Below, piece by piece: positions 6,767-23,468 of a stretch of 39,034 nucleotides of DNA. Source of the stretch: Bacteroidota bacterium (GTDB taxonomy: Bacteria > Bacteroidota > Ignavibacteria > UBA10030 > UBA8401); assembly GCA_030679145.1 (NCBI GenBank), contig JAUXTU010000097.1, positions 1 through 39,034 on the forward strand. The letters run 5' to 3'. Positions within the stretch are counted from its first letter, which is position 1, and each line of letters opens with the position of its first letter. Under the pieces are notes generated by a model. That model saw only the letters and a program-made list of their open reading frames with translations. It did not search any database and had not been told where the DNA came from. Both the position numbers and the translations under genes were made by a program.

Positions 6767-7093
6767 ATGAGAAGAGATGTTTTTCAGGCAATAGCAGATC
6801 CAAACAGACGAGCGATCATTAGTTTATTGGCAGGGCAGCAAAAAATGAATGTTAACGGTCTGGCAGAGAAATTTAAGATCAGCCGCCCGGCGATTTCAAA
6901 ACATATAAAAATTCTTTCTGAATGCGGATTGGTAATAACTACCCAAGAAGGGCGCGATAAGTATTGCGAAATGAAATTTGAAAAATTGAACGAAGTTTCA
7001 ACCTGGGTTGAGCAGTATAGGAAATTCTGGGAAGAGAAACTGGATGCACTGGACAATTATTTAACAACACTTCAGGCAAAAGAAAAAAAATAG
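6767..7093 (+). CDS. ArsR-family winged-helix repressor
   Basis: The 108-residue protein is a small winged-helix DNA-binding dimer. It begins with the typical RRDVFQAIADPNRRAIISLL, and the recognition region LAEKFKISRPAISKHIKIL spans roughly residues 32-50. No cysteine pair of the metal-sensing type is seen (only Cys53 and Cys66 regions), so it is more like the ArsR subgroup encoded beside SRPBCC/AHSA1 proteins than a metal sensor. It heads the set 7168-8958 and has a perfect operator at 6731-6750, suggesting it represses itself and the following genes. The inducer is unknown. Confidence 0.92.
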   Translation: MRRDVFQAIADPNRRAIISLLAGQQKMNVNGLAEKFKISRPAISKHIKILSECGLVITTQEGRDKYCEMKFEKLNEVSTWVEQYRKFWEEKLDALDNYLTTLQAKEKK

Positions 7094-7167
7094 CAGTAAG
7101 CTTTTTTATAAGAAGAGAATAAAAATCTCTGAAACAAATTTAATCATCCTTACAAGGAGAAATTACA

Positions 7168-7674
7168 ATGGCTGGAGATACAAAACAAAATTCACCGAAG
7201 GAAGATGTTTTTGTTAAGCGCATCATTGATGCGCCCGTTGAACTTGTTTGGAAAGCATGGACCGATACAACGCATGTTATGAAGTGGTGGGGACCAAAAC
7301 ATTATACTTCCCCAACCTGCGTGATCGATCTTCGAGAAGGAGGACAATATATTTTTTGTATGCGCGCGCCGAAAAACCAGGGTGGGCAAGATTCCTACGT
7401 GTCCGGAATCTATCAAAAAATTGTTCCGATGGAACGATTGGAATTTACGCAGGGACTATCAGATAAAGATGGAAACAGAATTAATCCTTTGTCTGTTGGT
7501 ATGCCGCCGGACTTTCCCAAAGAATTTCTCACAACAATTATTTTCAAAAGAATAAAACACGATATGACGGAGCTGACCGTTATTGAACATGGCTGGACAC
7601 CGGGTCACATGTATGTGTACTCGCTTGCCGGAATGCATCAATGCATCGACAAGCTTGCTGAAAGTCTGGAGTAA
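7168..7674 (+). CDS. SRPBCC / AHSA1-domain protein
   Basis: The 168-residue product has the START-like hydrophobic-pocket fold. Diagnostic blocks are RIIDAPVELVWKAWTD near the N-terminus, MKWWGPKHYTSP, LREGGQYIFCMR, and the C-terminal GWTPGHMYVYSLAGMHQCIDKLAE, the last two written separately. A ribosome binding site AAGGAGAA precedes the ATG. It follows the ArsR gene, a pairing frequent for this family. The bound ligand is not known, and the Hsp90-activator name given to the family should not be taken as function here. Confidence 0.88.
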   Translation: MAGDTKQNSPKEDVFVKRIIDAPVELVWKAWTDTTHVMKWWGPKHYTSPTCVIDLREGGQYIFCMRAPKNQGGQDSYVSGIYQKIVPMERLEFTQGLSDKDGNRINPLSVGMPPDFPKEFLTTIIFKRIKHDMTELTVIEHGWTPGHMYVYSLAGMHQCIDKLAESLE

Positions 7675-7679
7675 AAAAT

Positions 7680-8096
7680 ATGAAAATAAAAGCACAGGAG
7701 CTTTCAGACAAAGAGCAGGTGACAGCTCATATTAAAAAACTCGATCCTTCTGTCAGAAAAATAGTTAAGACATTGCGCCACATCATTTTAAGCACAAACA
7801 AAGAAATTGGTGTGCGCATCAAATGGAACAATCCCGCGTTCTATTACACCGGTGAAATGAAACCGTTTAATCCAAAGGAATTCAAAAGGGAGATAATCGT
7901 TTTTAATCTTTTCAAAGAAAGAATAATGTTGGTCTTCCCCAGTGGAGCTAAAGTAAATGATACGTCTGGCTTGCTCGAAGGAAAATATAAGGACGGCAGA
8001 AGAATTACAATCTTTAAAGACTTGAACGATGTTAAAGCAAAAAAGACAGTATTACAAAATGTAATAAAGAAATGGCTGACACTAATCGATAAATAA
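7680..8096 (+). CDS. DUF1801-domain protein
   Basis: This 138-residue cytoplasmic protein matches the DUF1801 (YdhG-like) pattern: LRHIILSTNKEIGVRIKWNNPAFYYTG as separate VRIKWNNPAFYY and FNPKEFKREIIVFN segments, ending with LQNVIKKWLTLIDK. The start lies 5 bp after the stop of the SRPBCC gene, so they are probably translated from one mRNA. No enzymatic activity is established for the family. A second member of the family is encoded at 16182. Confidence 0.8.
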   Translation: MKIKAQELSDKEQVTAHIKKLDPSVRKIVKTLRHIILSTNKEIGVRIKWNNPAFYYTGEMKPFNPKEFKREIIVFNLFKERIMLVFPSGAKVNDTSGLLEGKYKDGRRITIFKDLNDVKAKKTVLQNVIKKWLTLIDK

Positions 8097-8111
8097 CAAA
8101 AGGAAATAATT

Positions 8112-8525
8112 ATGAAGCGATTGATTTTTGCAATTATTACCGCAATTCTGATCAACGGAATTTTGGCAACTGCTATTGATGAAGTTCTTCATGCAACCGG
8201 TGTGTATCCGCCGCATGGGCAGCCGTATTTCGATACAGATTTATTTTTGTTGGCGCTGAGTTACCGCTTCATTATAACAATATTTGCCGCATACATTACC
8301 GCAATGATTGCAAAAGAAAAAGCGAACACGGCGTTATGGTTTACTGGAATATTGGGAGCAATTCTATGGCTTGCAGGAACAATTGCAATGCAGGGACTTG
8401 GTCCTCTGTGGTATGGTATTGTCGGCGCTATAACCGCGCTTCCCCTTGCACTGTTTGGCGGTTCATTATATAAGCGCCGATTGCAAAAAAATATCAGCCT
8501 GAATCTAAATAAACGTAAGGACTAA
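8112..8525 (+). CDS. Small integral membrane protein, unknown function
   Basis: The 137-residue product has about four hydrophobic segments: an N-terminal one (LIFAIITAILINGILATAI), one around YRFIITIFAAYITAMIA, one at ALWFTGILGAILWLAGTIA and one near YGIVGAITALPLALFGG. It ends in a basic tail. AAAGGAAA lies upstream of the ATG. It sits between DUF1801 and SRPBCC genes in the ArsR-led set, so it is probably coregulated. I do not recognise a named family. Confidence 0.75.
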   Translation: MKRLIFAIITAILINGILATAIDEVLHATGVYPPHGQPYFDTDLFLLALSYRFIITIFAAYITAMIAKEKANTALWFTGILGAILWLAGTIAMQGLGPLWYGIVGAITALPLALFGGSLYKRRLQKNISLNLNKRKD

Positions 8526-8529
8526 AATT

Positions 8530-8958
8530 ATGAACAATGAATCCTTTATTATCGAACGGACGTACAGCGCACCTGCAGAGAAAGTCTGGAAAGCGATCAC
8601 CGACAAGAACGAAATGAAACAATGGTACTTCGATCTTGCGGAATTCAAAGCCGAAGTCGGTTTTGAATTTCAGTTCACCGGCGGTCCGTCACCGGAAAAA
8701 CAATATTTACATCTCTGCAAAATTACCGAAGTGATTCCCGGTAAGAAGTTAACACATAGCTGGCGGTACGACGGTTACGAAGGAAATTCATTTGTTACAT
8801 TTGAATTGTTTGCCGAAGGAGGCAAGACCAGACTGAAACTTACCCACGCAGGTTTGGAAACATTCCCGAATGAAAATCCGGATCTTGCAAAACACAATTT
8901 TGTTGAAGGATGGACCGATATCATCGGCAGGTCATTGAAAGAATTTGTGGAAAAGTAA
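8530..8958 (+). CDS. SRPBCC / AHSA1-domain protein
   Basis: The 142-residue protein carries the AHSA1 pattern: IERTYSAPAEKVWKAITDK at the start, MKQWYFDLAEF, GGPSPEKQYLHLCKITEV, LTHSWRYDGYEG, and a C-terminal helix GWTDIIGRSLKEFVEK. It starts 4 bp after the preceding membrane-protein gene, so it completes the ArsR-led operon. A MITE-like element follows immediately. The ligand is unknown. Confidence 0.87.
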   Translation: MNNESFIIERTYSAPAEKVWKAITDKNEMKQWYFDLAEFKAEVGFEFQFTGGPSPEKQYLHLCKITEVIPGKKLTHSWRYDGYEGNSFVTFELFAEGGKTRLKLTHAGLETFPNENPDLAKHNFVEGWTDIIGRSLKEFVEK

Positions 8959-10543: not shown

Positions 10544-10687
10544 ATGGAAATTTCCACAGAACACATTCGCAAAACACTCGACACGGTTTACACGACCGAA
10601 TCGCGCCGCATTCTTGCTACGCCTGCGTGCCGAAACGCGGCACTTCGGCGTGCAGGCACGCTCATTCGTCTGCTTGCTAAAAATTAA
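10544..10687 (+). pseudogene. Relic N-terminal fragment of a second ECF42-type sigma gene with palindromic insertion
   Basis: The 47-codon reading frame parallels the first residues of the sigma factor at 10696: 19 of 26 leading residues are identical by hand alignment, including YTTESRRILAT. Homology is then interrupted by 13 codons (10622-10660) and resumes with LIRLLA before TAA. The insert is a 35-bp palindrome plus flank, bounded by duplicated ACG. DNA divergence from the neighbouring copy is substantial, so this is an old paralogue reduced to a stub, not a recent duplication. Confidence 0.75.
10622..10656. repeat. In-frame palindromic insertion in the sigma relic
   Basis: CCTGCGTGCCGAA (10622-10634) pairs with TTCGGCGTGCAGG (10644-10656) around a 9-nt loop; the two mismatches become G-U pairs in RNA. 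The insert with one flanking ACG is 39 nt, a multiple of three. Confidence 0.7.
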
Positions 10688-10695
10688 TTCACTCT

Positions 10696-11775
10696 ATGGA
10701 AAATTCGACTCAGAATATTAGTGCAACGCTTGATTCGTTATATACGACTGAATCGCGCCGAATTCTTGCTACATTGATTCGCTTACTCGGCGATTTTGAC
10801 ATTGCCGAAGATGCAATGCACGATGCATTTGCAGCAGCGGCGGAGAAGTGGTCCGTAGAGGGAGTTCCTGAAAACCCGCGAGCGTGGCTTATCTCAACGG
10901 GACGATTCAAAGCGATAGACGAAATGCGTCGCAATGCAAAGTTCAATTCATCATTAGATCAAGTCGCAGAACAGTACGAAGGAGATGCGTTCGACATTGC
11001 GGCGCAGATCGATAAAGGAATTCAGGATGATGAACTGCGGCTAATCTTTACTTGCTGTCATCCGGCATTATCCCCCGACGCGCGCATTGCACTGACACTG
11101 CGCGAAGTGTGCGATCTTACCACCGAAGAAATTGCGCATGCATTTCTCACCACACCGACTACGCTTGCGCAGCGCATCGTCCGTGCAAAAGCAAAGATCC
11201 GCGATGCGCGCATTCCGTATCAAGTGCCGGCGCAATCAGAACTGCCGGAGCGTTTGAACACTGTGCTTCATGTAATCTATTTAGTTTTTAACGAAGGATA
11301 TTCCGCATCATCGGGGGAAACATTAACGCGCGCAGATCTTTCCGGCGAAGCAATTCGTCTTGGAAGATTATTACTGCAATTGTTGCCAGAACCTGAAGCG
11401 ATGGGACTTCTTGCGCTGATGCTTTTACAAGAATCACGCCGCGCCGCGCGCACATCTTTTGTGGGCGATATAATTTTGCTGGAGGATCAAGACCGAGCAT
11501 TATGGAATCAAGAATATATCAACGAAGGAATCGCATTGGTTGAGCAGGCGCTTTCTTCGCGGCGCTTTGGACCGTACACAATTCAAGCGGCGATCGCAGC
11601 AGTACATTCCGAAGCAAAAAACGCGGCGGAAACAGATTGGAAACAGATCGTCGGATTGTATGATTTTCTGCTGCGGGTAGAACAGTCGCCGGTGATTGAA
11701 TTGAATCGCGCCGTAGCAGTTGCGATGCGTGATGCCCGCCTGCCGGACGGGGAGGGTTTTCAAGCGGGGGAATAA
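10696..11775 (+). CDS. ECF sigma factor, ECF42-type, C-terminus truncated by frameshift
   Basis: The 359-residue frame keeps both sigma domains: region 2 about residues 10-80 (LGDFDIAEDAMHDAFAAA, ENPRAWLISTGRFKAIDEMRR) and region 4 about 110-170, with the ECF42 hallmark TCCHPALSPDARIALTLREV. A helical TPR-like extension follows (about 190-346) and ends abruptly after AVAVAMRD, where the family continues. Eleven unrelated residues then lead to TAA. The missing part is readable in another frame at 11754-11966. Without 20 nt at 11734-11753 the frame would continue to about 416 residues, the usual family size. These sigma factors act with DGPF/YCII proteins, three of which are encoded 5-9 kb downstream. 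It may be inactive or altered. Confidence 0.88.
   Translation: MENSTQNISATLDSLYTTESRRILATLIRLLGDFDIAEDAMHDAFAAAAEKWSVEGVPENPRAWLISTGRFKAIDEMRRNAKFNSSLDQVAEQYEGDAFDIAAQIDKGIQDDELRLIFTCCHPALSPDARIALTLREVCDLTTEEIAHAFLTTPTTLAQRIVRAKAKIRDARIPYQVPAQSELPERLNTVLHVIYLVFNEGYSASSGETLTRADLSGEAIRLGRLLLQLLPEPEAMGLLALMLLQESRRAARTSFVGDIILLEDQDRALWNQEYINEGIALVEQALSSRRFGPYTIQAAIAAVHSEAKNAAETDWKQIVGLYDFLLRVEQSPVIELNRAVAVAMRDARLPDGEGFQAGE
11734..11753. repeat. Net 20-nt insertion that shifts the sigma factor frame
   Basis: The segment contains CCCG (11735-11738) and CGGG (11748-11751) around CCTGCCGGA. Removing these 20 nt joins GAT to GGG-TTT-TCA and restores the frame into the conserved C-terminus. The exact boundaries are ambiguous by a few bases. 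Confidence 0.6.
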
Positions 11776-11966
11776 ATATTATCGATGCAATTCTTGAACG
11801 CGGCGATCTTACCGATTATCAATTTGCACATTCCGCACGGGCAGAGCTTTGTCGCCGATTAGGGAACATGGATGAAGCGAAAACTTCATTTGCACGCGCA
11901 CTTTTTCTGACAAAACAAGAACCTGAGCGAAGGTTTTTGGAAGGCCAGATGAAAAAATTGGGATGA
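11754..11966 (+). pseudogene. Out-of-frame C-terminal part of the ECF42 sigma factor
   Basis: This frame encodes GGINIIDAILERG, then FAHSARAELCRRLGNMDEA, and ends TKQEPERRFLEGQMKKLG before TGA at 11964. The pattern (helical repeats, HSARAELCRRLG, ERRFLE) is the conserved end of ECF42-type sigma factors. It lacks its own start and is offset +2 from the upstream frame, so it is the displaced tail of the gene at 10696. Confidence 0.85.
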
Positions 11967-11973
11967 AAGAACA

Positions 11974-12246
11974 GTCCGCCCTACGGGGCTCGATGAGATG
12001 TAGATGATCGCTAATTATAAATAGCGCGTTCCTACGGAGCAATTACCATTGTGTGAAAAATGAAAATTTGAAAATATGTGATCGAACAATTGGATAAAAT
12101 AATAAAGGACTTCGCCGGAATGACGACGCAAGCGTCGGGATATTAGACCCAATAGTGAATAAATTTATAAAATTACATTTAGCACCATCGGTGCGAACAG
12201 ACTATAGGGATAACAGAAAAAAATTATTCAAGCGCCATAGGCGCGA
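11974..12246. repeat. Short RAYT-type palindromes upstream of the transposase
   Basis: This gene-free stretch holds GCCCTACGGGGC (about 11978-11990), GTTCCTACGGAGC (about 12028-12040), TTAGCACCATCGGTGCGAAC (12178-12197) and AGCGCCATAGGCGC (12231-12244). Each is a 4-6 bp stem around a CTACGG, CATCGG or CATAGG centre. They resemble the REP hairpins that accompany REP-associated transposases. Nothing else is evident up to the transposase start. Confidence 0.65.
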
Positions 12247-12271
12247 CCTGTAAACAATACGTGGAGGGATA

Positions 12272-12739
12272 ATGGCAAATACCTACACCCAGATTTATAT
12301 TCATATTGTTTTTGCTGTGCAGGGAAGAGGATGTTTGATTCCACGCCAGCATAAAGAAGAGTTATGTAAATTCACCACCGGTATTATTAAAAACAGAGAT
12401 CAAAAACTCATTGCAATCAATTGCGAACCGGACCACATGCATGTTTTTGTCGGCGTAAAACCAACGATCACAATATCCGATCTTGTACGGGATATCAAAG
12501 CCGGTTCTTCCGGATTTATCAACGATAAACAATGGATCAAAGGTAAATTCAACTGGCAGGAAGGGTTTGGGGCATTCTCCCATTCCCATTCAAATATTGA
12601 CACGGTTGTAAAATATATTCAGAGCCAGGAAGAACATCATCGGAAGAAAACATTCAAGGAAGAATATTTAAAAATGTTGGAGGATTTTGCTGTGGAGTAT
12701 AATTCGGAATATCTCTTTCAGTGGATTGACGAGGAATGA
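12272..12739 (+). CDS. REP-associated tyrosine transposase (IS200/IS605-like Y1 family)
   Basis: The 155-residue protein is a single-strand DNA transposase of the HUH/Y1 class. The metal-binding motif is CEPDHMHVFV with His55 and His57, and the nucleophilic tyrosine is probably Tyr115 in TVVKYIQSQEEHH. The N-terminus TYTQIYIHIVFAVQGR and the C-terminal EYLFQW are typical. No accessory TnpB is encoded and no classical IS ends are seen. Instead, short palindromes lie on both sides, as expected for a domesticated RAYT acting on REP hairpins. The frame is intact, so it may be active. GGAGGGATA precedes the ATG. Confidence 0.92.
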   Translation: MANTYTQIYIHIVFAVQGRGCLIPRQHKEELCKFTTGIIKNRDQKLIAINCEPDHMHVFVGVKPTITISDLVRDIKAGSSGFINDKQWIKGKFNWQEGFGAFSHSHSNIDTVVKYIQSQEEHHRKKTFKEEYLKMLEDFAVEYNSEYLFQWIDEE

Positions 12740-12743
12740 ATCA

Positions 12744-12938
12744 GGTCGCCCCTCTGGGGCTAAATCTGTACGCCCCTCTGGGGCTATAAACAGTGCACTC
12801 CTACGGAGTGCTTTAATTCTTTAACAATAAGTTTAAAAAAAATAAGCGATGCTGGGAAAATTTTAGCACCGTAGGTGCAAACTGTTTGTCGTTTTATTGC
12901 AAGTACATAAAACAAGCTCCGAAGGAGCGATCTATAAA
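12744..12938. repeat. Short RAYT-type palindromes downstream of the transposase
   Basis: GCCCCTCTGGGGC occurs twice (about 12748-12760 and 12772-12784), followed by GCACTCCTACGGAGTGC (12796-12812), TAGCACCGTAGGTGCAAAC (12864-12882) and GCTCCGAAGGAGC (12916-12928). They differ in stem sequence but share size and a CTNNGG-type centre. The rest of the gap to 13075 shows only a ribosome binding site (AGGAGAG) for the peptidase. Confidence 0.7.
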
Positions 12939-14944: not shown

Positions 14945-14971
14945 TGTCGATTTTTGATTATGCTAATCGAC
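14945..14971 (+). promoter_or_regulatory. Candidate ECF42 promoter for the 15073 gene array
   Basis: TGTCGA (14945-14950) and CGAC (14968-14971) are spaced by 17 nt and followed by TATATATTG. This matches the -35 TGTCGA and -10 CGA(T/C) pattern I recall for ECF42 sigma factors. A near-identical element precedes the gene at 20425. A hairpin TGCGCCA/TGGCGCA (14996-15015) lies in the leader. The role is inferred from the motif and the DGPF genes downstream. Confidence 0.65.
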
Positions 14972-15072
14972 TATATATTGTCAGCCAGAAGCTGATGCGC
15001 CAAAAAACTGGCGCACAAGTGCGTCTCTGGTGCAAATGAATATTTTCATCGATAATGAAAGGAGAAACAACC

Positions 15073-15681
15073 ATGAGAAAAATAATCGTTTTATCGTTTA
15101 TTACCTTAGATGGAGTAATGCAAGCGCCCGGAGGTCCCGAGGAAGATACGTCAAGTGGCTTCAAATATGGCGGTTGGTGTGCGCCGTATTTTGCCGACGC
15201 TGACGAAGCGGCCGGTGAGCTCATGGCAAAACAAATGAAGTCCGCAGACCTTCTATTGGGTAGAAAAACATTTGATATTTTTGCTGCCTACTGGCCTGAA
15301 CATGCAGATATGTGGACAGGTATCAATGACGTCACTAAATACGTCGTGTCCAAGACTATGAATAAGAATAAGTCAGATTGGAAAAACATAGTTTTCCTTA
15401 AAAGCGTCGATGACATCAAAAAGATCAAGAACTCAGCAGGCACTGATATCCAAGTTCATGGCAGCGGCAACCTGGTCCAGACACTACTCAAACATGATCT
15501 GGTTGATGAGCTGTGGCTCAAAACGTTCCCGGTCACACTCGGTACGGGCAAGCGTTTGTTTGGCGAGGGTAGCATTCCTGCAGCCTTCACATTAACAGAG
15601 AGTTTGGTTACGCCAAATGGTGTGATTTTCGCCAATTACAAGCGAACCGGAGAAGTGAAGACAGGTACTATTGGAGCGTAA
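15073..15681 (+). CDS. Dihydrofolate reductase-family protein (RibD C-terminal-like), paralogue 1
   Basis: The 202-residue cytoplasmic protein has the DHFR/RibD reductase fold, so an NADPH-dependent reduction is likely, but the substrate is unknown. Visible motifs are FITLDGVMQAPGGPEED, LLLGRKTFDIFAAYWPEH, YVVSKTMNKN, IQVHGSGNLVQTLL and LWLKTFPVTLGTGKRLF. The ATG at 15073 follows AAAGGAGA; a start 18 bp upstream would swallow that site. It is the first gene after the ECF42-like promoter. The 3' end is odd: a second GEVKTG-coding stretch follows its stop. Confidence 0.88.
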   Translation: MRKIIVLSFITLDGVMQAPGGPEEDTSSGFKYGGWCAPYFADADEAAGELMAKQMKSADLLLGRKTFDIFAAYWPEHADMWTGINDVTKYVVSKTMNKNKSDWKNIVFLKSVDDIKKIKNSAGTDIQVHGSGNLVQTLLKHDLVDELWLKTFPVTLGTGKRLFGEGSIPAAFTLTESLVTPNGVIFANYKRTGEVKTGTIGA

Positions 15682-15708
15682 GGAGAAGTAAAAACAGGTT
15701 CGTTCTAA
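15649..15708 (+). repeat. Duplicated 3' end of the reductase gene
   Basis: GGAGAAGTGAAGACAGGT (15649) is repeated with two changes as GGAGAAGTAAAAACAGGT (15682). The first copy ends the frame as GEVKTGTIGA. The second, directly after the stop, would read GEVKTGSF then TAA, which looks like a usual C-terminus of this family. Confidence 0.7.
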
Positions 15709-15729
15709 ATACTATAAGGAGATATTACC

Positions 15730-16164
15730 ATGAGATTCATAATGTTCATGATCCCGGATGTTTACCAGGGAGGAAAAGGGAAAAGAGTTGCAGGAGATTT
15801 CACTCCTCCCGCCGATGCTGTGGAAGCAATGATGAAATATAACGAAGAACTGGCAAAAGCAGGACATCTCATCGCGCTCGACGGTCTTCATCCGATTGAA
15901 AAAGGCGCGCGCGTTTCTTTTTCCAAAGGAAAACCGACCGTCACCGATGGACCGTTCATCGAATCGAAGGAAGTGTTCGGCGGATATTGGCACGTCAATT
16001 TCAAATCCAAAGAAGAAGCAATCGAATGGGCAAAGCGCATTCCTGCGGCGGACGGTGATACCGTAGAAATCCGTCAGGTGTTCGAAGTGGCTGATTGGCC
16101 GGAAGATGCGCAGAATGCTGCAGACAGCTCAGTAGTGAAAAAGGCGGTAGAAAAACACCGATAG
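15730..16164 (+). CDS. YCII/DGPF-domain protein, paralogue 1
   Basis: The 144-residue protein contains the name-giving motif in KPTVTDGPFIESKEVFGGYW (Asp73-Gly-Pro-Phe76), in a ferredoxin-like YciI fold. The ending is long and charged. A strong TAAGGAGAT ribosome site precedes the ATG. DGPF proteins are the typical genomic partners and targets of ECF42 sigma factors, and such a sigma gene is 4 kb upstream. Biochemical activity is not known for this family. Confidence 0.9.
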   Translation: MRFIMFMIPDVYQGGKGKRVAGDFTPPADAVEAMMKYNEELAKAGHLIALDGLHPIEKGARVSFSKGKPTVTDGPFIESKEVFGGYWHVNFKSKEEAIEWAKRIPAADGDTVEIRQVFEVADWPEDAQNAADSSVVKKAVEKHR

Positions 16165-16181
16165 ACAAAACAAAAAAGAAT

Positions 16182-16559
16182 ATGAAAAAAATTAACATAG
16201 AAAACATCGATGATTACATCGCGGGTTTTCCAAAAAGCACTCAAAAACTTTTAAAAGAAATCAGAGCCGCGATTAAAAAAGCAGCGCCGCAAACTGAAGA
16301 GGCGATCAAATACGGTATTCCGACATTTATGCTGAATGGTAACTTAGCGCATTTTGGAGGATACGAACATCATATCGGGTTTTATCCTGCGCCGCGGGCG
16401 ATTGAAGTATTCAAAAAGGAGCTGTCAAAGTATGAGGGTGGAAAGGGGACGATACAATTTCCGATAGACAAACCGCTTCCCATTGGGCTGATAAAAAAAA
16501 TTGTAAAATTTAGAGTAAAGGAACATTTAGAAAAAGTGAAAGTAAAAAAGAAAAAATAG
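16182..16559 (+). CDS. DUF1801-domain protein
   Basis: The 125-residue product matches small DUF1801 proteins: DDYIAGFPKSTQKLLKEIR, APQTEEAIKYGIPTFMLNG, LAHFGGYEHHIGFYPAP and FPIDKPLPIGLIKKIVKFR, ending in a lysine-rich tail. The ATG at 16182 is chosen because the upstream frame overlaps the YCII gene and has no family similarity. It starts 17 bp after the YCII stop. Function is unestablished, though the fold is linked to iron/frataxin-like domains in databases. Confidence 0.85.
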   Translation: MKKINIENIDDYIAGFPKSTQKLLKEIRAAIKKAAPQTEEAIKYGIPTFMLNGNLAHFGGYEHHIGFYPAPRAIEVFKKELSKYEGGKGTIQFPIDKPLPIGLIKKIVKFRVKEHLEKVKVKKKK

Positions 16560-16581
16560 TTTGATTATAGGAGAAAAAATT

Positions 16582-16986
16582 ATGAAATACATTTGCTTAG
16601 GTTATTTAGAAGAACATATGTGGGATGGCTGGTCCGAAAACGAACAAAAGAATTTTGTTGATGAATGCATGACGTACGACAAGGAGCTTCGGACAAATAA
16701 AAATTTCATCGGCGGTGAAGCATTGCAGAGCATTCGGACGGCAACAACAGTTCGACACAAAAACGGAAAACCTGCCATCACCGACGGTCCGTTTGCCGAA
16801 ACGAAAGAGCAATTGGGAGGGATTATGATATTGGAAGCGCGTGATTTGAACCACGCCATTCAATTGATGTCGAACCATCCTTCCACACGCATGGGCGGAA
16901 CGTGGGAGATTCGTCCTGCAGACGAGCAGATCAACGCTCTGTATCAGGAAAAGGAAAAATATTCAATGGCTTCCAAAGAAAAATAA
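16582..16986 (+). CDS. YCII/DGPF-domain protein, paralogue 2
   Basis: The 134-residue protein begins MKYICLGYLEEH and carries KPAITDGPFAETKEQLGGI, then WEIRPADEQ near the end. The ATG at 16582 follows ATAGGAGA; a TTG 21 bp upstream is less likely. This copy is the ordinary short ECF42-type DGPF protein, closest to the copy at 19968 (shared FAETxEQLGG). It lies in the operon between DUF1801 and the second reductase gene. Confidence 0.92.
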   Translation: MKYICLGYLEEHMWDGWSENEQKNFVDECMTYDKELRTNKNFIGGEALQSIRTATTVRHKNGKPAITDGPFAETKEQLGGIMILEARDLNHAIQLMSNHPSTRMGGTWEIRPADEQINALYQEKEKYSMASKEK

Positions 16987-17001
16987 AAAGGAGAATCAAT
17001 A

Positions 17002-17562
17002 ATGGGTAAGATCGTGATGTGGAATTTGATGACACTGGACGGCTATTTTGAAGGAACAAAAAAGTGGGATCTCGATTTCCACAACATTGTGTGGGGCGAT
17101 GAACTTGAACAGTTGTCTATTGAACAATTGAGTCAATGCAATTCTTTGGTGTTCGGACGGGTAACCTATGAAGGGATGGCGGCATATTGGACAACCGCAA
17201 CGGGTGAAGTAAAAGTTGCTGATTTTATGAACAAAATTCCGAAAATTGTTTTTTCCAAAACTCTCAACAAAGCTGATTGGAACAACACACGGTTAGTGAA
17301 AGATAATATTGAAGAAGAAGTTGCAAAGCTGAAGCAATCCGGAAAAGATTCTTACATCTTTGGGAGCGCGGACTTTTCCGCAACACTGATGAAGCTCGGA
17401 TTGATTGACGAATACCGGATTTGCGTCGTGCCGGTGATTCTCGGCGGAGGAACTCCTCTCTTTAAAGCAAATCCGGAACAATTGAAATTACAACTGCTCA
17501 ATACACAGGTATTGAAAAACGGCGGTGTTATACTTCGGTATGCAAGCAATGCAAACAACTAA
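17002..17562 (+). CDS. Dihydrofolate reductase-family protein, paralogue 2
   Basis: The 186-residue protein shows the RibD-C/DHFR pattern: MWNLMTLDGYFEGTKKWDL, SLVFGRVTYEGMAAYW, PKIVFSKTLNKADWNNT, SYIFGSADFSATLMKLGLID and CVVPVILGGGTPLFK. It starts 15 bp after the YCII gene behind AAAGGAGAA. It is more similar to paralogue 3 at 18944 than to paralogue 1. The reaction is unknown; an NADPH-dependent reduction is the family expectation. Confidence 0.9.
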   Translation: MGKIVMWNLMTLDGYFEGTKKWDLDFHNIVWGDELEQLSIEQLSQCNSLVFGRVTYEGMAAYWTTATGEVKVADFMNKIPKIVFSKTLNKADWNNTRLVKDNIEEEVAKLKQSGKDSYIFGSADFSATLMKLGLIDEYRICVVPVILGGGTPLFKANPEQLKLQLLNTQVLKNGGVILRYASNANN

Positions 17563-17594
17563 TTCATTTACAATAATTCATAAGGAGGATCATC

Positions 17595-17957
17595 ATGGGT
17601 AAATATGTTGACGGTTTTGTCATTCCGGTAGCAAAAAAGAAACTTCCGGCGTACCGAAAAATGGCGCAGATCGGCGCAAAAGTCTGGAAGAAACACGGCG
17701 CGCTGGAATATTTCGAGTGTGTCGGCGACGATCTTAATCCGGCGTTCGCAGGAATTAAATTTCCACAAACGGTAAAAGCAAAAAAGGGCGAAACGGTGAT
17801 CTTCTCGTTCATCATCTACAAATCGCGCAAGCACCGCGACAGTGTGAATGCCAAAGTGATGAAAGATCCGATGATGAATGATTCGCAGAATATGGCAATG
17901 CCATTTGACATGAAACGCATGGCATTCGGAGGATTCAAAACGATCGTGGAATTCTAA
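17595..17957 (+). CDS. DUF1428 (YbaA-like) protein
   Basis: The 120-residue protein matches DUF1428 along its length: MGKYVDGFVIPVAKKKLPAY, GALEYFECVGDD, GETVIFSFIIYKSRKHRDSV, and the ending PFDMKRMAFGGFKTIVEF, which contains the conserved RM.FGGF block. The fold is of the dimeric alpha/beta barrel type related to YCII. TAAGGAGGA precedes the ATG. It is part of the same gene array; no activity is established for the family. Confidence 0.92.
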   Translation: MGKYVDGFVIPVAKKKLPAYRKMAQIGAKVWKKHGALEYFECVGDDLNPAFAGIKFPQTVKAKKGETVIFSFIIYKSRKHRDSVNAKVMKDPMMNDSQNMAMPFDMKRMAFGGFKTIVEF

Positions 17958-17997
17958 GAAAAATCATCGATGCTTGAGAACAAAAGAAGGTTCAGTT

Positions 17998-18918
17998 ATG
18001 ACAAAACTCAAACACAAAATCATACCGCACTTGTGGTATGATAAAGAAGCAAAAGAAGCGGCGGAGTTTTACTGCTCTGTTTTCCCCGACTCCAAGATCA
18101 CCAACGTCATCACGCTTCACGATACTCCCTCTGGTGATTGCGATGTGGTTTCGTTCCAGCTTTCGGATCAGTCGTTCATGGCGATCAGTGCGGGACCGTA
18201 CTTCAAATTCAATCCGTCGATCTCCTTCATACTCAATTTCGATCCATCGAGAGACAAGAACGCTCGGAAGAATCTCGATGCAACTTGGGAGAAATTGTCG
18301 CACGGCGGTACGGCACTGATGCCGTTAGACAAATATCCATTCAGCGAATGGTACGGCTGGATACAAGATAAATACGGGCTCTCATGGCAGCTCATCCTCT
18401 CAAATCCCGACGGCGAAGAAAGGCCATTCATTGTGCCGTCGTTGATGTTCGTCGGAGATGTCTGCGCGAAAGCGGAAGAAGCAACCGACTACTATCTCTC
18501 GGTATTCAAAAACACAAAACGAGGATTGATTGCCCGCTATCCAAAAGGAATGGAACCGGATAAAGAAGGGACGATCATGTTCACCGACTTCATGATCGAA
18601 GGCCAGTGGTTTGCCGCTACGGAGAGCGCACACGAACATAAATTCGCTTTCAACGAAGCGGTCTCACTCATGGTTCCCTGCGATACTCAACAAGAGATTG
18701 ATTACTTCTGGAAAAAACTTTCCGTCGTACTGGAAGCTGAACAGTGCGGGTGGTGCAAAGATAAGTACGGACTCTCGTGGCAAATTCATCCTGCCGTAAT
18801 GGATGAGATGATGCAGAAGGGAACGCGTGAGCAGGTCGATCGGTTAACAAAAGCGTTCCTGCCGATGAAGAAACTCAACATTGCAAAGTTGAAGAAAGCG
18901 TACGAAGGAAAATCATAA
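17998..18918 (+). CDS. Tandem VOC/PhnB-like protein (two domains)
   Basis: The 306-residue protein has two glyoxalase/bleomycin-resistance-like domains of the PhnB/3-demethylubiquinone-methyltransferase-like group. Domain 1 covers about residues 3-135 (IIPHLWYDKEAKEAAEFYCS, ending YGLSWQLILSNPDG) and domain 2 about 145-285 (LMFVGDVCAKAEEATDYYLS, ending YGLSWQIHPAVMDEMM). The parallel YCSVFPDSK/YLSVFKNTK and DKYGLSWQ motifs show an internal duplication. The ATG at 17998 is preferred over an upstream start because of AGAAGG just before it. The array context suggests detoxification, but the substrate is unknown. Confidence 0.9.
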   Translation: MTKLKHKIIPHLWYDKEAKEAAEFYCSVFPDSKITNVITLHDTPSGDCDVVSFQLSDQSFMAISAGPYFKFNPSISFILNFDPSRDKNARKNLDATWEKLSHGGTALMPLDKYPFSEWYGWIQDKYGLSWQLILSNPDGEERPFIVPSLMFVGDVCAKAEEATDYYLSVFKNTKRGLIARYPKGMEPDKEGTIMFTDFMIEGQWFAATESAHEHKFAFNEAVSLMVPCDTQQEIDYFWKKLSVVLEAEQCGWCKDKYGLSWQIHPAVMDEMMQKGTREQVDRLTKAFLPMKKLNIAKLKKAYEGKS

Positions 18919-18943
18919 TAGATCACGCAAAGGAGACCAGTCA

Positions 18944-19495
18944 ATGAGAAACGTAGTGTTCGGAATCAATATAACGCTGGATGGCGTGTGCGATCATACC
19001 AATGGGATTGCCGATGATGAACTGCACGAGTACTTCACCGGGCTCCTGCAAAGTGCAGACATCGATATTTTAGGGCGTAACACCTATCAGTTGATGTACC
19101 CGTATTGGCACGACGTCGCGGTGAATCAATCGGAATCGAAAGTTGTCAACGAATTTGCACGCACGTATGATTCGATCCCGAAGATCGTCTTTTCAAAAAC
19201 GTTAACAGGTGTGGAATGGAACAACACGACGCTTCTGCGTTCAAATCTTCAAGAAGAGATCATAAAATTGAAACAGCAGCCCGGAAAAAATATTTCCATC
19301 GGCAGTTTGAGCATTGCCGCATTTCTTACGCAACTCGGTCTGATCGATGAATATTATATCGTTGTTCATCCGGTAATTGCAGGAAAAGGTCCCCGCTTGT
19401 TCGATTCGGTAGGTAAATATACACTGGAACTCATCGATTCTAAAAGATTTCGTTCCGGCGCGATTGCACTTCATTATAAAAAAATTTCTTCATAA
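18944..19495 (+). CDS. Dihydrofolate reductase-family protein, paralogue 3
   Basis: The 183-residue protein repeats the pattern of paralogue 2: FGINITLDGVCDHTNGI, DILGRNTYQLMYPYW, PKIVFSKTLTGVEWNNT, ISIGSLSIAAFLTQLGLIDE and HPVIAGKGPRLF. AAAGGAGA lies upstream of the ATG. The shared PKIVFSKTL...EWNNT core with the gene at 17002 points to an older duplication. A reductase role is inferred from the fold only. Confidence 0.9.
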   Translation: MRNVVFGINITLDGVCDHTNGIADDELHEYFTGLLQSADIDILGRNTYQLMYPYWHDVAVNQSESKVVNEFARTYDSIPKIVFSKTLTGVEWNNTTLLRSNLQEEIIKLKQQPGKNISIGSLSIAAFLTQLGLIDEYYIVVHPVIAGKGPRLFDSVGKYTLELIDSKRFRSGAIALHYKKISS

Positions 19496-19510
19496 AAAAG
19501 GAGATGTTCT

Positions 19511-19963
19511 ATGCAAAAACTACATTATTCAATCGTCATCAACGCACCGGCATCAAAAGTGTGGACTACGATGCTTGATGATAAAACGTATCGTCTATGG
19601 ACAGAGGCATTTTCACCCGGCTCGTACTACAAAGGTGATTGGAACAAAGGAAGCAAAATTCTTTTCCTTGGTCCCAGCGAAAACGGTGACTCGGGAATGG
19701 TAAGCCGGATAAAAGAAAACAGGAAACATGAATTTATTTCTATTGAACATCTCGGTATGATACAGAACGGCAAGGAAGACACTTCAAGCGAAGAGGCAAA
19801 AGCTTGGGCCGGAGCGCTTGAAAATTATACCTTCACGGAAAAAAATGGCGCCACCGAATTACTTATCGATCTCACAGGAAATATCGCCGAAGAATTTGTA
19901 GAGATGTTTGACGGTATTTGGCCGAACGCGTTGAAAAAATTGAAAGAAATTGCAGAGAAATAA
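19511..19963 (+). CDS. SRPBCC-domain protein
   Basis: The 150-residue protein has the START-like fold: LHYSIVINAPASKVWTTMLD at the N-terminus, YRLWTEAFSPGSYYKGDWNK, GMVSRIKENRKHEFISIEHL, and a closing helix DGIWPNALKKLKEIAEK. AAAGGAGA precedes the ATG. Its stop is 4 bp before the start of the next YCII gene, so the two are co-translated. Ligand unknown. Confidence 0.88.
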   Translation: MQKLHYSIVINAPASKVWTTMLDDKTYRLWTEAFSPGSYYKGDWNKGSKILFLGPSENGDSGMVSRIKENRKHEFISIEHLGMIQNGKEDTSSEEAKAWAGALENYTFTEKNGATELLIDLTGNIAEEFVEMFDGIWPNALKKLKEIAEK

Positions 19964-19967
19964 CAGT

Positions 19968-20327
19968 ATGAAATATATGCTCCTTGTCTATCTCAGTGAG
20001 GATGCGCTGACAGAAAACGAGCGCATGCAATGCTATAAAGATTCGGCAGCACTTTCGCGAGACCTCAGTGCGGGCGGAAAATACATCGACGCGTCGCCGC
20101 TGCAATCCGTTTCACTGGCAACCAGTGTCCGCGTCCGCAACGGCAAACGGCTCATCACCGACGGTCCCTTTGCAGAAACTCACGAACAGCTCGGCGGATT
20201 TTACCTGATCGACGCAAAGAATCTGGATGATGCAATTGCCATTGCAGAACGTGTGCCGGTCGTGACAGTAGGAACCATTGAAATCCGTCCCGTGCTGGAA
20301 ATACCCGGATTGCCCGAGAATTCTTAA
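19968..20327 (+). CDS. YCII/DGPF-domain protein, paralogue 3
   Basis: The 119-residue protein starts MKYMLLVYLSEDALTENER, has the motif LITDGPFAETHEQLGGFYL and ends with VGTIEIRPVLEIPG. It is a textbook ECF42-associated DGPF protein. The ATG at 19968 gives the standard family length; a start 18 bp earlier would overlap the SRPBCC stop. It is the last gene of the first block of the array. The next promoter follows within 30 bp. Confidence 0.93.
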   Translation: MKYMLLVYLSEDALTENERMQCYKDSAALSRDLSAGGKYIDASPLQSVSLATSVRVRNGKRLITDGPFAETHEQLGGFYLIDAKNLDDAIAIAERVPVVTVGTIEIRPVLEIPGLPENS

Positions 20328-20351
20328 AAATTCACAAACGGCAGATAGAGT

Positions 20352-20378
20352 TGTTGATTTCCAATCCCTTCATTCGAC
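20352..20378 (+). promoter_or_regulatory. Candidate ECF42 promoter for the 20425 operon
   Basis: TGTTGA (20352-20357) and CGAC (20375-20378) are 17 nt apart and followed by TATATAGTG. Bases shared with the element at 14945 extend through GATTT and ATTCGACTATATA-like sequence. The -35 has one change from TGTCGA. It lies 47 bp before the ATG at 20425, a suitable position for a promoter. Confidence 0.6.
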
Positions 20379-20424
20379 TATATAGTGAGGATAGAAATCT
20401 TTATTTAACCCAAAAGGAGTCACT

Positions 20425-20856
20425 ATGACAGCATCCAATAAAACAATAACGATCACCATTGAAACAACGGTCAACGCGCCGATCGAAACAGTGTGGAAGA
20501 TGTGGAATGCGCCGGAAGATATCACAAAATGGGCTACCGGATCACCCGATTGGCATACACCTTACGCGGAGAACGATCTTCGTGTCGGCGGCAAATTTCT
20601 TTCTCGTATGTCAGCAAAAGACGGCAGCGCCAGTTTCGATTTTGTTGGAATATACGATGAAGTCAAAACCAACAGCGTTATTGCCTACACAATGGAAGAT
20701 GGCAGAACAGCAAAAATCGTCTTTACCCCATCAGGAAAGAGCGTAAAGATCGTCGAGACATTCGAAGCGGAAACTGAGAACACGCCGGAACTGCAGAGAG
20801 CCGGATGGCAAACGATCCTTGATAATTTTAAGAAACACGTTGAATCAAATTCATAA
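20425..20856 (+). CDS. SRPBCC / AHSA1-domain protein
   Basis: The 143-residue protein shows ITIETTVNAPIETVWKMWNA, DWHTPYAENDLRVGGKFLSR, SFDFVGIYDEVKTNSVIAYT and the C-terminal GWQTILDNFKKHVES. AAAAGGAGT precedes the ATG. It is the first gene behind the second ECF42-like promoter, and it is followed by hydrolase, DoxX and FAD oxidase genes on the same strand with short gaps. Ligand unknown. Confidence 0.9.
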   Translation: MTASNKTITITIETTVNAPIETVWKMWNAPEDITKWATGSPDWHTPYAENDLRVGGKFLSRMSAKDGSASFDFVGIYDEVKTNSVIAYTMEDGRTAKIVFTPSGKSVKIVETFEAETENTPELQRAGWQTILDNFKKHVESNS

Positions 20857-20888
20857 TCTTTTCAATACATCAAAAGAGAACCATTCTC

Positions 20889-21674
20889 ATGAACAAAGTA
20901 ATTTCAAAAGACGGAACCTCTATTGCATATGAAAAATCAGGAAGTGGTGAACCGTTGATCCTTATTGACGGCGCATTGTGTTACCGTTCCTTTGGACCGA
21001 TGAAAAAGTTTGCTTCATTATTATCAAACAACTTCACTGTCTATTGGTATGATCGTCGCGGACGAGGCGACAGCGGCGATTCTCCAACATCTTCACCGGA
21101 TCGGGAAGTTGAAGATATCGAAGCACTGATCAACGAAACCGGAGGCGCCGCATTTCTTCTTGGTCTTTCTTCCGGTGCAGCTCTTGCGCTTCGAGTGGCA
21201 TCAAAAGGACTCAATATTAAGAAGATGGCATTGTACGAACCACCATATGTATGGGATAAGAACAGCGGGAAACCTGCGATCGATCACGAAGCAGCATTGA
21301 AAAAAATATTGGCGACAGGCAATCGCGGCAAAGCGGTAAAATATTTTATGGTAACAATGGTTGGTGCTCCGGCGATAGCCGCATTCGTCATGCAATTGAT
21401 GCCAATGTGGAAAAAATTGAAAGGTGTCGCACATACGCTACCGTACGATTCAGCGATCATGGGAGATTGGTCTGTTCCCGAAGAAAACATTTCATCGATA
21501 AAAACCCCTACACTTATTGCAGGAGGTGGAAAAAGTCCCGCGAATCTGCAGGATCCAGTAAAGCTGATCGCTAAGCTTCTTTCGAATGGAACGCTTAAAA
21601 TGCTGGAGGGGCAAACGCATAATGTAAAAGCAGAAGTCCTTATCCCTGAAGTGATGAAATTTTTCAAAAAATAA
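20889..21674 (+). CDS. Alpha/beta hydrolase
   Basis: The 261-residue cytoplasmic protein has the alpha/beta-hydrolase layout: SKDGTSIAYEKSGSGEPLIL, YDRRGRGDSGDSP, the nucleophile elbow LGLSSGAAL with Ser94, and a C-terminal His in EGQTHNVKAE. The usual acid after strand 6 is not obvious near IAGGGKSPANLQDP, so the catalytic triad is only partly visible. This form is common next to ECF42/DGPF clusters and ArsR-SRPBCC genes. Substrate unknown. Confidence 0.88.
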   Translation: MNKVISKDGTSIAYEKSGSGEPLILIDGALCYRSFGPMKKFASLLSNNFTVYWYDRRGRGDSGDSPTSSPDREVEDIEALINETGGAAFLLGLSSGAALALRVASKGLNIKKMALYEPPYVWDKNSGKPAIDHEAALKKILATGNRGKAVKYFMVTMVGAPAIAAFVMQLMPMWKKLKGVAHTLPYDSAIMGDWSVPEENISSIKTPTLIAGGGKSPANLQDPVKLIAKLLSNGTLKMLEGQTHNVKAEVLIPEVMKFFKK

Positions 21675-21704
21675 TTCTACAAATCAATTATAAAGGAAGA
21701 GTAT

Positions 21705-22112
21705 ATGTCATCGTCAAGTGAAAATGTGTTGATCTCCAAACCAAAACTTTGGATGTCGTATGCACTTAGCGGTATCGCAGTCTTATTTATGGTTTTTGAT
21801 ACCGGCATCAAAGTCTTGCGGGAAAGTCATGCGGTTGAAGGAACCATTCAACTTGGGTATCCCGACAGTTCCGTTGTTACCATTGGAATCATTGAAGCAA
21901 TTTGTCTTCTGTTGTATATTATTCCGCGTACATCGGTTCTCGGCGTGGTGCTGATGACCGGATATCTTGGCGGAGCAGTTGCTACCCACATACGGCTGGG
22001 AAATCCGTTGTTCTCACATATTCTTTTTTCAGTTTATATAGCAATTTTGTTATGGGGAGGATTATATCTTCGCGAACAGAGACTGAGAGAATTAATACCA
22101 TTTCGGAAATAA
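21705..22112 (+). CDS. DoxX-like membrane protein
   Basis: The 135-residue protein has four hydrophobic helices, with LWMSYALSGIAVLFMVFDTG, IGIIEAICLLLYIIPRTSVLG and LMTGYLGGAVATHIRLG typical of the DoxX-like family. AAAGGAAGAG precedes the ATG. It lies between the hydrolase and the FAD oxidase, and the next gene starts within about 20 bp. The family is linked loosely to redox and oxidative stress functions; the exact role is unknown. Confidence 0.87.
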   Translation: MSSSSENVLISKPKLWMSYALSGIAVLFMVFDTGIKVLRESHAVEGTIQLGYPDSSVVTIGIIEAICLLLYIIPRTSVLGVVLMTGYLGGAVATHIRLGNPLFSHILFSVYIAILLWGGLYLREQRLRELIPFRK

Positions 22113-22130
22113 TAATTGAATCAACAATCT

Positions 22131-23468
22131 ATGAAACCAGTGAACATCGATACTCTTAAACAGAATTTTTTTGGCACCATAATTATGCCGAATGATGATG
22201 CGTACGAACAGGCGCGCAAATCGTATGTCGGCAGCGGCTCTCCCGCAATCGTCGTTCGTCCGAACACCGCCGGTGATGTTGTGGTCGCAATCCAGTTTGC
22301 ACAGAGCAATTCGTTGGTCATTTCCATCCGCAGCGGCGGACATAGTGTTGCCGGATTCTGCACGAACAACGGTGGAATTATTATCGACCTTTCAGTGATA
22401 AACAGCGTTGAACTTATTGATAAACAGAACAATATCGTCAGAATCGGCACGGGAGCAACGTGGAAAAAAGTTGCCGGGACGTTGCAAGAGTTTGGATTGG
22501 CCCTCTCGTCCGGAGATTCTACATCCGTCGGTGTCGGCGGACTTGCGCTGGGAGGAGGGATCGGCTGGATGGTACGCAAATATGGATTGACGATCGATAG
22601 TTTGAAAGCCGCAGAAACTGTCACCGCCGACGGAAAAATCCTGCGAACAACTGCAACAGAGTATCCCGATCTTTTTTGGGCAATCAGAGGCGGCGGCGGA
22701 AATTTTGGTGTAGTAACGCATTTTGAATTTGCAGCGAAGCCGGTGGGCAAAGTATTTTCGGGAATGATCATCTATGCAATGGAAAATTTATCGGCTCTCT
22801 TGAAAGGGTGGCGTGATGCGATGCGTGCTTCATCGGAAGATCTCACCGTGATGTTCCTTGTGATGCCCTCATTCTTCGGTAATCCTCCGTCTGCAATTGC
22901 GTGGTGTTGTTACGCAGGAGATGATGAGACGGCCGCGATGAAGGCGATCGGTCCGCTGCTGAAGATCGGTACCGTCGTTCAAAACATGGTTGTGAAAAAA
23001 AATTATGCAGATGTACTCGAAGAGCCTCATCCGCCCGAAGGAGTAAAAGCGATCGTCACGAACGGATTTGTTGAACAACTCAGCGACGAACTTATTGATG
23101 CAATTGCTTCAACTCATGGTAAGGAAGTTGGTCCGGTGCTGCAATTGAGATATGTCAAAGGTGCGATGAACCGGATCGATTCCGGATCAACGGCGTTCGC
23201 GCATCGCGGCAGTGAAACAATGCTTGTTTCGGCAAGCTTTGTTCCGCTGGAGGCAACCAAAACTGAAATCGATCAAGCAATGATACCGTGGAAAACGATC
23301 TCACCATTTACCAAAGGAGCATACGTTAATTTCTTCAGCAGCGCAAACAAGGAAGATGTTGCTGCTGCGTATCCGCAAGAAACATATAACCGTCTTGCAG
23401 CGGTCAAAAAAATATATGATCCGAAGAATATCTTCAATCAGAACTACAACATTCCGCCGGCGGATTAA
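22131..23468 (+). CDS. FAD-linked oxidase with berberine-bridge C-terminus
   Basis: The 445-residue enzyme has an FAD-binding PCMH domain (about 38-210): VVRPNTAGDVVVAIQFAQ, ISIRSGGHSVAG with His71, the probable covalent flavin site, and GVGGLALGGGIGW. The segment LSSGDSTSVGVGG lacks the cysteine of bicovalent members, so a single covalent link is expected. The C-terminal BBE motif is YNRLAAVKKIYDPKNIF. I prefer the ATG at 22131 to a TTG at 22116; neither has a strong ribosome site. No export signal is visible. Its last four bases overlap the convergent DUF4199 gene. The substrate is unknown. Confidence 0.92.
   Translation: MKPVNIDTLKQNFFGTIIMPNDDAYEQARKSYVGSGSPAIVVRPNTAGDVVVAIQFAQSNSLVISIRSGGHSVAGFCTNNGGIIIDLSVINSVELIDKQNNIVRIGTGATWKKVAGTLQEFGLALSSGDSTSVGVGGLALGGGIGWMVRKYGLTIDSLKAAETVTADGKILRTTATEYPDLFWAIRGGGGNFGVVTHFEFAAKPVGKVFSGMIIYAMENLSALLKGWRDAMRASSEDLTVMFLVMPSFFGNPPSAIAWCCYAGDDETAAMKAIGPLLKIGTVVQNMVVKKNYADVLEEPHPPEGVKAIVTNGFVEQLSDELIDAIASTHGKEVGPVLQLRYVKGAMNRIDSGSTAFAHRGSETMLVSASFVPLEATKTEIDQAMIPWKTISPFTKGAYVNFFSSANKEDVAAAYPQETYNRLAAVKKIYDPKNIFNQNYNIPPAD

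Follow-up and report, generated by a model that had tools for sequence, protein, structure and literature searches.

Two probable ECF42-type promoters before a 14-gene YCII/DGPF array in a genome of the Ignavibacteria

Introduction

Which RNA polymerase transcribes a long array of YCII/DGPF and enzyme genes that lies downstream of a gene for an extracytoplasmic function (ECF) sigma factor? The locus lies in contig JAUXTU010000097.1 (positions 1 to 39,034, forward strand) of assembly GCA_030679145.1, from a Bacteroidota bacterium (Ignavibacteria; UBA10030; UBA8401); this whole stretch of 39,034 nucleotides (nt) is called the window. Sigma factors of the ECF42 group are already known, as are the YCII genes beside them and a promoter of the TGTCGA type, and an ECF42 promoter motif of the TGTCGA/CGAC type was reportedly described in Streptomyces venezuelae by Liu et al. 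in 2018. Based on sequence comparison, two elements in the window are, with a probability of about 0.9, promoters for RNA polymerase with an ECF42-type sigma factor (natively, the product of the gene that starts at position 10696), and very probably serve a ten-gene and a four-gene unit (Table 1).

Results

Two matching elements precede two gene units

As claimed in a preliminary description of this DNA, the window contains TGTCGA-N17-CGAC at 14945-14971 and TGTTGA-N17-CGAC at 20352-20378, with a spacer of 17 nt in each and with extra bases common to both (TTGTYGATTT and TCGACTATATA). Outside these blocks the elements have little sequence in common, which argues against a long duplication behind them. 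Compared with the ECF42 promoter (TGTCGA at -35 and CGAY at -10, at conserved spacing), site 1 is exact, and site 2 carries T for C at position 4. Both elements are intergenic. Site 1 is located between the stop codon of an M20 peptidase gene (14788) and the ATG of a RibD-like gene at 15073, which has a ribosome-binding site and lies 99 nt past CGACTA (an earlier ATG at 15055 lacks one), and site 2 in the 97-nt gap between a YCII stop codon (20327) and the ATG of an SRPBCC gene (20425), 44 nt past CGACTA. The ten genes of unit 1 (15073-20327) are separated by gaps of 4 to 48 nt and the four genes of unit 2 (20425-23468) by gaps of 3 to 32 nt; together, the 14 genes represent nine Pfam families, which suggest a role in modifying or removing small reactive or toxic compounds. 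The three DGPF (YCII) genes previously counted in the array were recovered by the family scan.

The pattern TGTYGA-N17-CGAC was observed twice in the window, compared with 0.22 occurrences expected under a first-order Markov model (100 sequences). The genome (3.83 Mb, 123 contigs) was scanned with the reversed pattern as a control. In a scan with the short motif, which the preliminary description had proposed as a check, TGTYGA-N16-18-CGAC had 45 matches and its reverse 34, and with a count so near background the test is uninformative. The two window sites themselves gave rise to the pattern TGTYGA-N15-19-TCGACTATA, and nothing but these 2 sites matched it, with 0 control matches. The pattern TGTCGATTT-N14-CGACTA, derived from relatives, is matched with 0 mismatches at site 1, with 1 mismatch at site 2 and with fewer than three mismatches nowhere else in the genome. 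A search loosened to at most 3 mismatches of this pattern returned background only (88 matches, 119 in the control) and was discarded. The useful consensus for such putative promoters is TGTCGAWTT-N14-CGACTA, not the short motif.

A weight matrix (consensus TGTCGAtTTcnncnnncgccaatCGACTAtnnnntga) was built from 43 sites of other genomes in the order, none of them from the window. It scored both window sites (Table 1) inside its training range of 24.8 to 47.9, with 2.7 for the next best position in the window and 12.3 for the top of 60 random 39-kb sequences. The hexamer columns are invariant by construction, because the sites were chosen for exact hexamers, which does not apply to the flanks, the spacer ends and the purine 9 nt past CGAC; the independence of some sites is limited, since they stem from congeneric species. 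Five sites located inside a long open frame with no array-type gene downstream (loci L223, L224, L235, L236 and L258) were dropped from the matrix and the distance counts, a decision made after their neighbours had been seen, and 9 of the 43 sites kept also overlap an open frame of more than 300 nt. A matrix of all 48 sites gave the same result (34.1 and 32.7 for the window sites, next best 3.6). A purine is found 9 nt past CGAC at 40 of the 43 sites, or at 40 of 48 with the dropped five.

The motif accompanies the sigma gene and the array families

Within the order, a close orthologue of the sigma gene (at least 69% identity) was found in 16 of 60 genomes, own genome included; that of genome G331 is only a fragment at a contig end. 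The pattern TGTCGA-N17-CGACTA had 49 matches in the 60 genomes taken together, according to tallies that, like those of the array sites, were made by hand. Of these, 40 (6 reversed) fell into the 16 orthologue-bearing genomes, none of which lacks a match, and 9 (11 reversed) into the 44 genomes without a close orthologue. With the own genome excluded, 39 matches against 5 reversed remained, present in 15 of 15 genomes with the orthologue. The motif co-occurs with the sigma gene across genomes, as a promoter would with its cognate factor.

In relatives, the sigma gene is likewise accompanied by array genes of these families, and TGTCGA-N17-CGAC stands ahead of YCII genes and others of the array. 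More than one site in an array is not peculiar to the window but frequent in the order: at least two were present in 7 of 13 array-holding loci (L174, L175, L179, L181, L182, L184 and L185), a count that stands apart from two loci ending at the sigma gene (L176, L180) and two with distant sigma genes (L187, L188). At 34 of the 48 sites outside the window, all of them among the 43 retained, the gene that follows encodes a homologue of one of the window's array proteins (24 YCII, 4 RibD, 2 AHSA1 and one each of BBE, DoxX, hydrolase and PhnB), with a median distance of 51.5 nt to the start codon (range 24 to 366). Nine further sites precede genes for a hydrolase (L174), a DoxX-like protein (L250), HlyD adaptors (L251, L253), OEP channels (L257, L262), a protein like that of L262 (L261, not scanned) and a DUF998 protein (L265), and a gene without a Pfam family (L182). 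The sites of the efflux genes (L251, L253, L257, L261, L262) all read TGTCGA-N17-CGACTA, four of the five in the form TGTCGAATT. A site occurs before HlyD genes in both G319 and G200 and before OEP-type genes in both G251 and G055, and this recurrence in two pairs of same-genus species makes chance an unlikely source.

In other phyla, 80 sigma loci with best-segment identities of 63 to 73% were analysed (Nitrospira, cyanobacteria, acidobacteria, pseudomonads, planctomycetes and others), using a search zone of 250 nt before each YCII gene or its first 30 nt. There were 46 TGTCGR-N16/17-CGAY sites before 115 YCII genes, in 42 loci, with a spacer of 17 nt in 34 and of 16 nt in 12 cases. The other spacers from 10 to 25 nt summed to 7, and the reversed pattern occurred 0 times at spacers 16/17 and once over all spacers. 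No site was detected in this zone in 38 of the 80 loci, 7 of which had no YCII match. The 250-nt limit misses sites, as seen on rechecking whole loci of Pseudomonas: a site lies within the limit in only 3 of 24 loci, whereas 23 of the 24 (among L024 to L093) hold TGTCGA-N16/17-CGAC, nearly always followed by TA, ahead of the sigma gene or at another place in the locus and mostly as CGACTAAGGGTGT. Of the 80 loci, 4 contained RibD-like genes and 12 SRPBCC genes; a large mixed array thus seems to be typical of the order of the window, a reading to be taken with care because window proteins served as queries.

The same-spacer motif before array families in the order supports the proposal, made when the elements were first noted, that ECF42-type promoters drive a local regulon exceeding the usual one or two DGPF genes; the motif before YCII genes in other phyla and an excess that tracks the close sigma orthologue further back the ECF42 assignment.

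The sigma gene is present but broken in the assembly

The ECF42-type sigma gene placed upstream of the array in the preliminary description is indeed there, but its frame is broken in the assembly, which had been missed. The protein matched sigma-70 regions 2 and 4 (PF04542, PF08281) and TIGR02937 above their cut-offs, contains DUF6596 (PF20239), which we take to be a mark of ECF42, and has the YCII neighbours of that group in the form of the three array genes. No TPR family was matched in the Pfam scan, and no family named ECF42 was among the matches listed (25 of 42 NCBIfam). The break lies within a G+C-rich stretch absent from five aligned plus-strand orthologues, and the remainder runs on in another frame. 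All 12 orthologues examined are unbroken, with open stretches of 420 to 503 amino acids. While the body of the protein is 69 to 83% identical to them (tail, see Table 1), orthologue pairs among themselves share 73% in the body and 70% in the tail. The ratio of changes at first and second to those at third codon positions is 0.31 for the out-of-frame tail and 0.33 for intact pairs; because the tail keeps the pattern of intact orthologues, the break is probably recent or an assembly error, and the circuit would be either recently disabled or intact in the cell. All 12 orthologues share the region 4 segment AQRIVRAK unchanged with the window protein. The insert was at first suspected to be an abundant repeat, but the 15-base string used to probe this has a single occurrence genome-wide. 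An N-terminal fragment of a second sigma gene is present at 10545-10685 and has 72% identity, over 88 nt, with the beginning of the main copy; it is broken by an insert that is palindromic and rich in G+C, from which a 23-base string was located at two places in the genome, one of them with a mismatch.

Features of the locus

Table 1. Positions of the predicted promoters and start sites, the array genes and the sigma gene in the window.
Feature	Position	Strand	Basis or remark
Promoter 1, TGTCGATTT-N14-CGACTA (predicted)	14945..14973	+	Matrix score 34.7, exact consensus match
Promoter 2, TGTTGATTT-N14-CGACTA (predicted)	20352..20380	+	Matrix score 35.8
Predicted transcription start, unit 1 (G, 9 nt past CGAC)	14980	+	Purine of relatives and S. 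meliloti SMc01149 start
Predicted transcription start, unit 2 (G, 9 nt past CGAC)	20387	+	As for unit 1
RibD_C (dihydrofolate-reductase-like) protein 1	15073..15681	+	Pfam, scanned from 15055
YCII/DGPF protein 1	15730..16164	+	Pfam
DUF1801 protein	16182..16559	+	Pfam, scanned from 16185
YCII/DGPF protein 2	16582..16986	+	Pfam
RibD_C protein 2	17002..17562	+	Pfam
DUF1428 protein	17595..17957	+	Pfam
3-dmu-9_3-mt (PhnB/glyoxalase-like) protein, two matched stretches	17998..18918	+	Pfam
RibD_C protein 3	18944..19495	+	Pfam
AHSA1/SRPBCC protein, unit 1	19511..19963	+	Pfam
YCII/DGPF protein 3	19968..20327	+	Pfam
AHSA1/SRPBCC protein, unit 2	20425..20856	+	Pfam
Alpha/beta hydrolase	20889..21674	+	Pfam
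DoxX-like membrane protein	21705..22112	+	Pfam
Flavin adenine dinucleotide (FAD)-binding oxidase with berberine-bridge-like (BBE) end	22116..23468	+	Pfam
ECF sigma gene, ECF42 type (sigma-70 regions 2 and 4, DUF6596), frame ends early in assembly	10696..11775	+	Pfam
Out-of-frame rest of sigma C-terminus, still like orthologues	11776..11967	+	60-71% identity to 12 orthologues

A hairpin (z -2.2) at 14985-15030 falls into the predicted 5' leader of unit 1, and the leaders of relative L174 contain other palindromes shortly past the promoter. Between the sigma gene and the array, the region 12016-12930 carries an IS200-like Y1 transposase gene (12272-12739) between short palindromes such as TCCTACGGAG and CCCCTCTGGGG, an arrangement that we take to be reminiscent of transposases associated with repetitive extragenic palindromes. 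An ArsR regulator gene followed by SRPBCC and small genes, with families partly as in the array, is located at 6767-8958 without a matching site.

Discussion

In the proposed mechanism, an inducing signal would bring into play a sigma factor whose region 4 reads TGTCGA(W)TT and whose region 2 reads CGACTA across the 17-nt spacer. Transcription would begin 9 nt past CGAC, by analogy with SMc01149 of Sinorhizobium meliloti, whose mapped start lies 9 nt past CGTC (PMC6180224). Promoter 1 would serve the ten packed genes from the RibD-like gene to the third YCII gene, and promoter 2 the SRPBCC, hydrolase, DoxX and FAD oxidase genes.

Several observations weigh against this interpretation. The sigma frame stops at residue 359, about 60 residues short of the orthologues, and the C-terminal extension of ECF42 is called completely essential in a review (PMC8999054); with the local gene truncated by the frameshift in the assembly, present activity of the factor is unproven. 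The T at position 4 of site 2 is absent from the 48 other sites, whose loci were mostly retrieved with the C form. A TATA tail is no general feature: the exact extended pattern had 14 single matches in 296 genomes of the phylum and about 36 in the control (counted by hand); these matches lie in 14 other genomes, at least one of them before a YCII gene. As requiring the tail phylum-wide gave little beyond background outside the own genome, it was left out of the consensus. Consensus sites before YCII genes occur in G310 (L267) and G326 (L268), in which no close sigma orthologue was found, and the YCII gene of S. meliloti was unresponsive to overexpression of the ECF42 factor RpoE10 (PMC6180224).

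The alternative that survives best, although we consider it unlikely, is that the local gene is dead and that the elements, still ECF42-type promoters, are at present used by a different ECF42-like sigma factor encoded in the genome (C116 or C57). The frameshift would fit this scenario, as would two more sigma relatives in the genome (38% and 34% identical) and TGTCGA-N17-CGACTA sites before YCII or SRPBCC genes in G330 and G120, which have distant sigma relatives only; however, the stretches around the two other sigma genes (L108, L109) hold no matrix match above 5.7, so that these factors may read a different motif, and the intact codon-position pattern of the out-of-frame tail points to a break that is recent or an error. 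It is very improbable that the sites bind a repressor or activator rather than being sigma promoters. Operator and promoter are not separable by sequence alone, and site 1 is partly palindromic, its opposite strand giving the consensus with 3 mismatches, but the consensus is directional and has a fixed spacer, a purine 9 nt past CGAC and, about 50 nt further downstream, a start codon, its matches track the ECF sigma gene, and the ECF42 promoters of S. meliloti have mapped starts. Chance, with one of many TGTYGA-N17-CGAC strings joined by a second nearby through luck, could appeal to the near-background genome count of the loose motif, but is scarcely credible with the extended form at two sites only, matrix scores far above the null and like sites before the same families in relatives.

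Read as ECF42-type promoters, the elements can be set beside known systems. In the review, ECF42 members include Sven_0747, Sven_7131 and Sven_4377 of S. venezuelae and ECF-10 of Pseudomonas putida, with a YCII gene as a conserved neighbour (PMC8999054). The window shares with this group an ECF sigma factor, a YCII neighbour and a promoter of the TGTCGA/CGAC type; of the long, TPR-rich C-terminal extension of the group, about 60 conserved terminal residues are out of frame in the window. It differs from the group in the sigma factor truncated in the assembly and in a consensus extended to TGTCGAWTT and CGACTA, and from the S. venezuelae and P. putida systems in having two promoters over 14 genes of nine Pfam families. 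RpoE10 of S. meliloti acts at TGTCGG-N17-CGTC promoters with mapped starts, and its targets include hydrophobic-ligand-binding and glyoxalase-like proteins (PMC6180224), so that a wider regulon is not new in kind. Its few targets, 17-nt spacer and YCII gene adjoining the sigma gene resemble the window; in contrast, six genes respond there, four of them in two separate two-gene operons, instead of one long array, and the YCII gene lies upstream of the sigma gene, whereas the window's array lies downstream (PMC6180224). The sigma loci of the order (13 among L174 to L189, and L014) are like the window in having a close orthologue, one to four sites and arrays of YCII, RibD_C, PhnB, SRPBCC, DUF1801, DUF1428, DoxX and like genes. 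Several relatives have sites on other contigs too, some before HlyD or OEP genes, whereas the window's genome has none with fewer than three mismatches outside the array.

The analysis adds an extended consensus and shows across genomes that it is linked to the sigma orthologue; further additions are the layout of 14 genes with two promoters and the candidate efflux targets in relatives. These points were not found described in the available parts of the literature searched, in which PMC8103513 and PMC9205884 offered nothing further on the promoter; Liu et al. 2018 and Tettmann et al. 2014 (P. putida) lay outside the comparison.

There is, in our estimate, an even chance that the ECF42 system of this order, once a switch of one or two DGPF genes, has become a detoxification regulon with several promoters. 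Such a regulon would comprise as many as five sites in a genome that lie outside other genes; its arrays would hold YCII, RibD-like, glyoxalase-like, SRPBCC, DoxX and FAD oxidase genes, and certain species would add genes for efflux (HlyD adaptor, TolC-type channel). For questions about the role of YCII/DGPF proteins and about the interaction partner of ECF42 sigma factors, which the review leaves unidentified (PMC8999054), the longer consensus and the arrays with their candidate enzymes and efflux genes provide concrete gene sets and promoter fusions.

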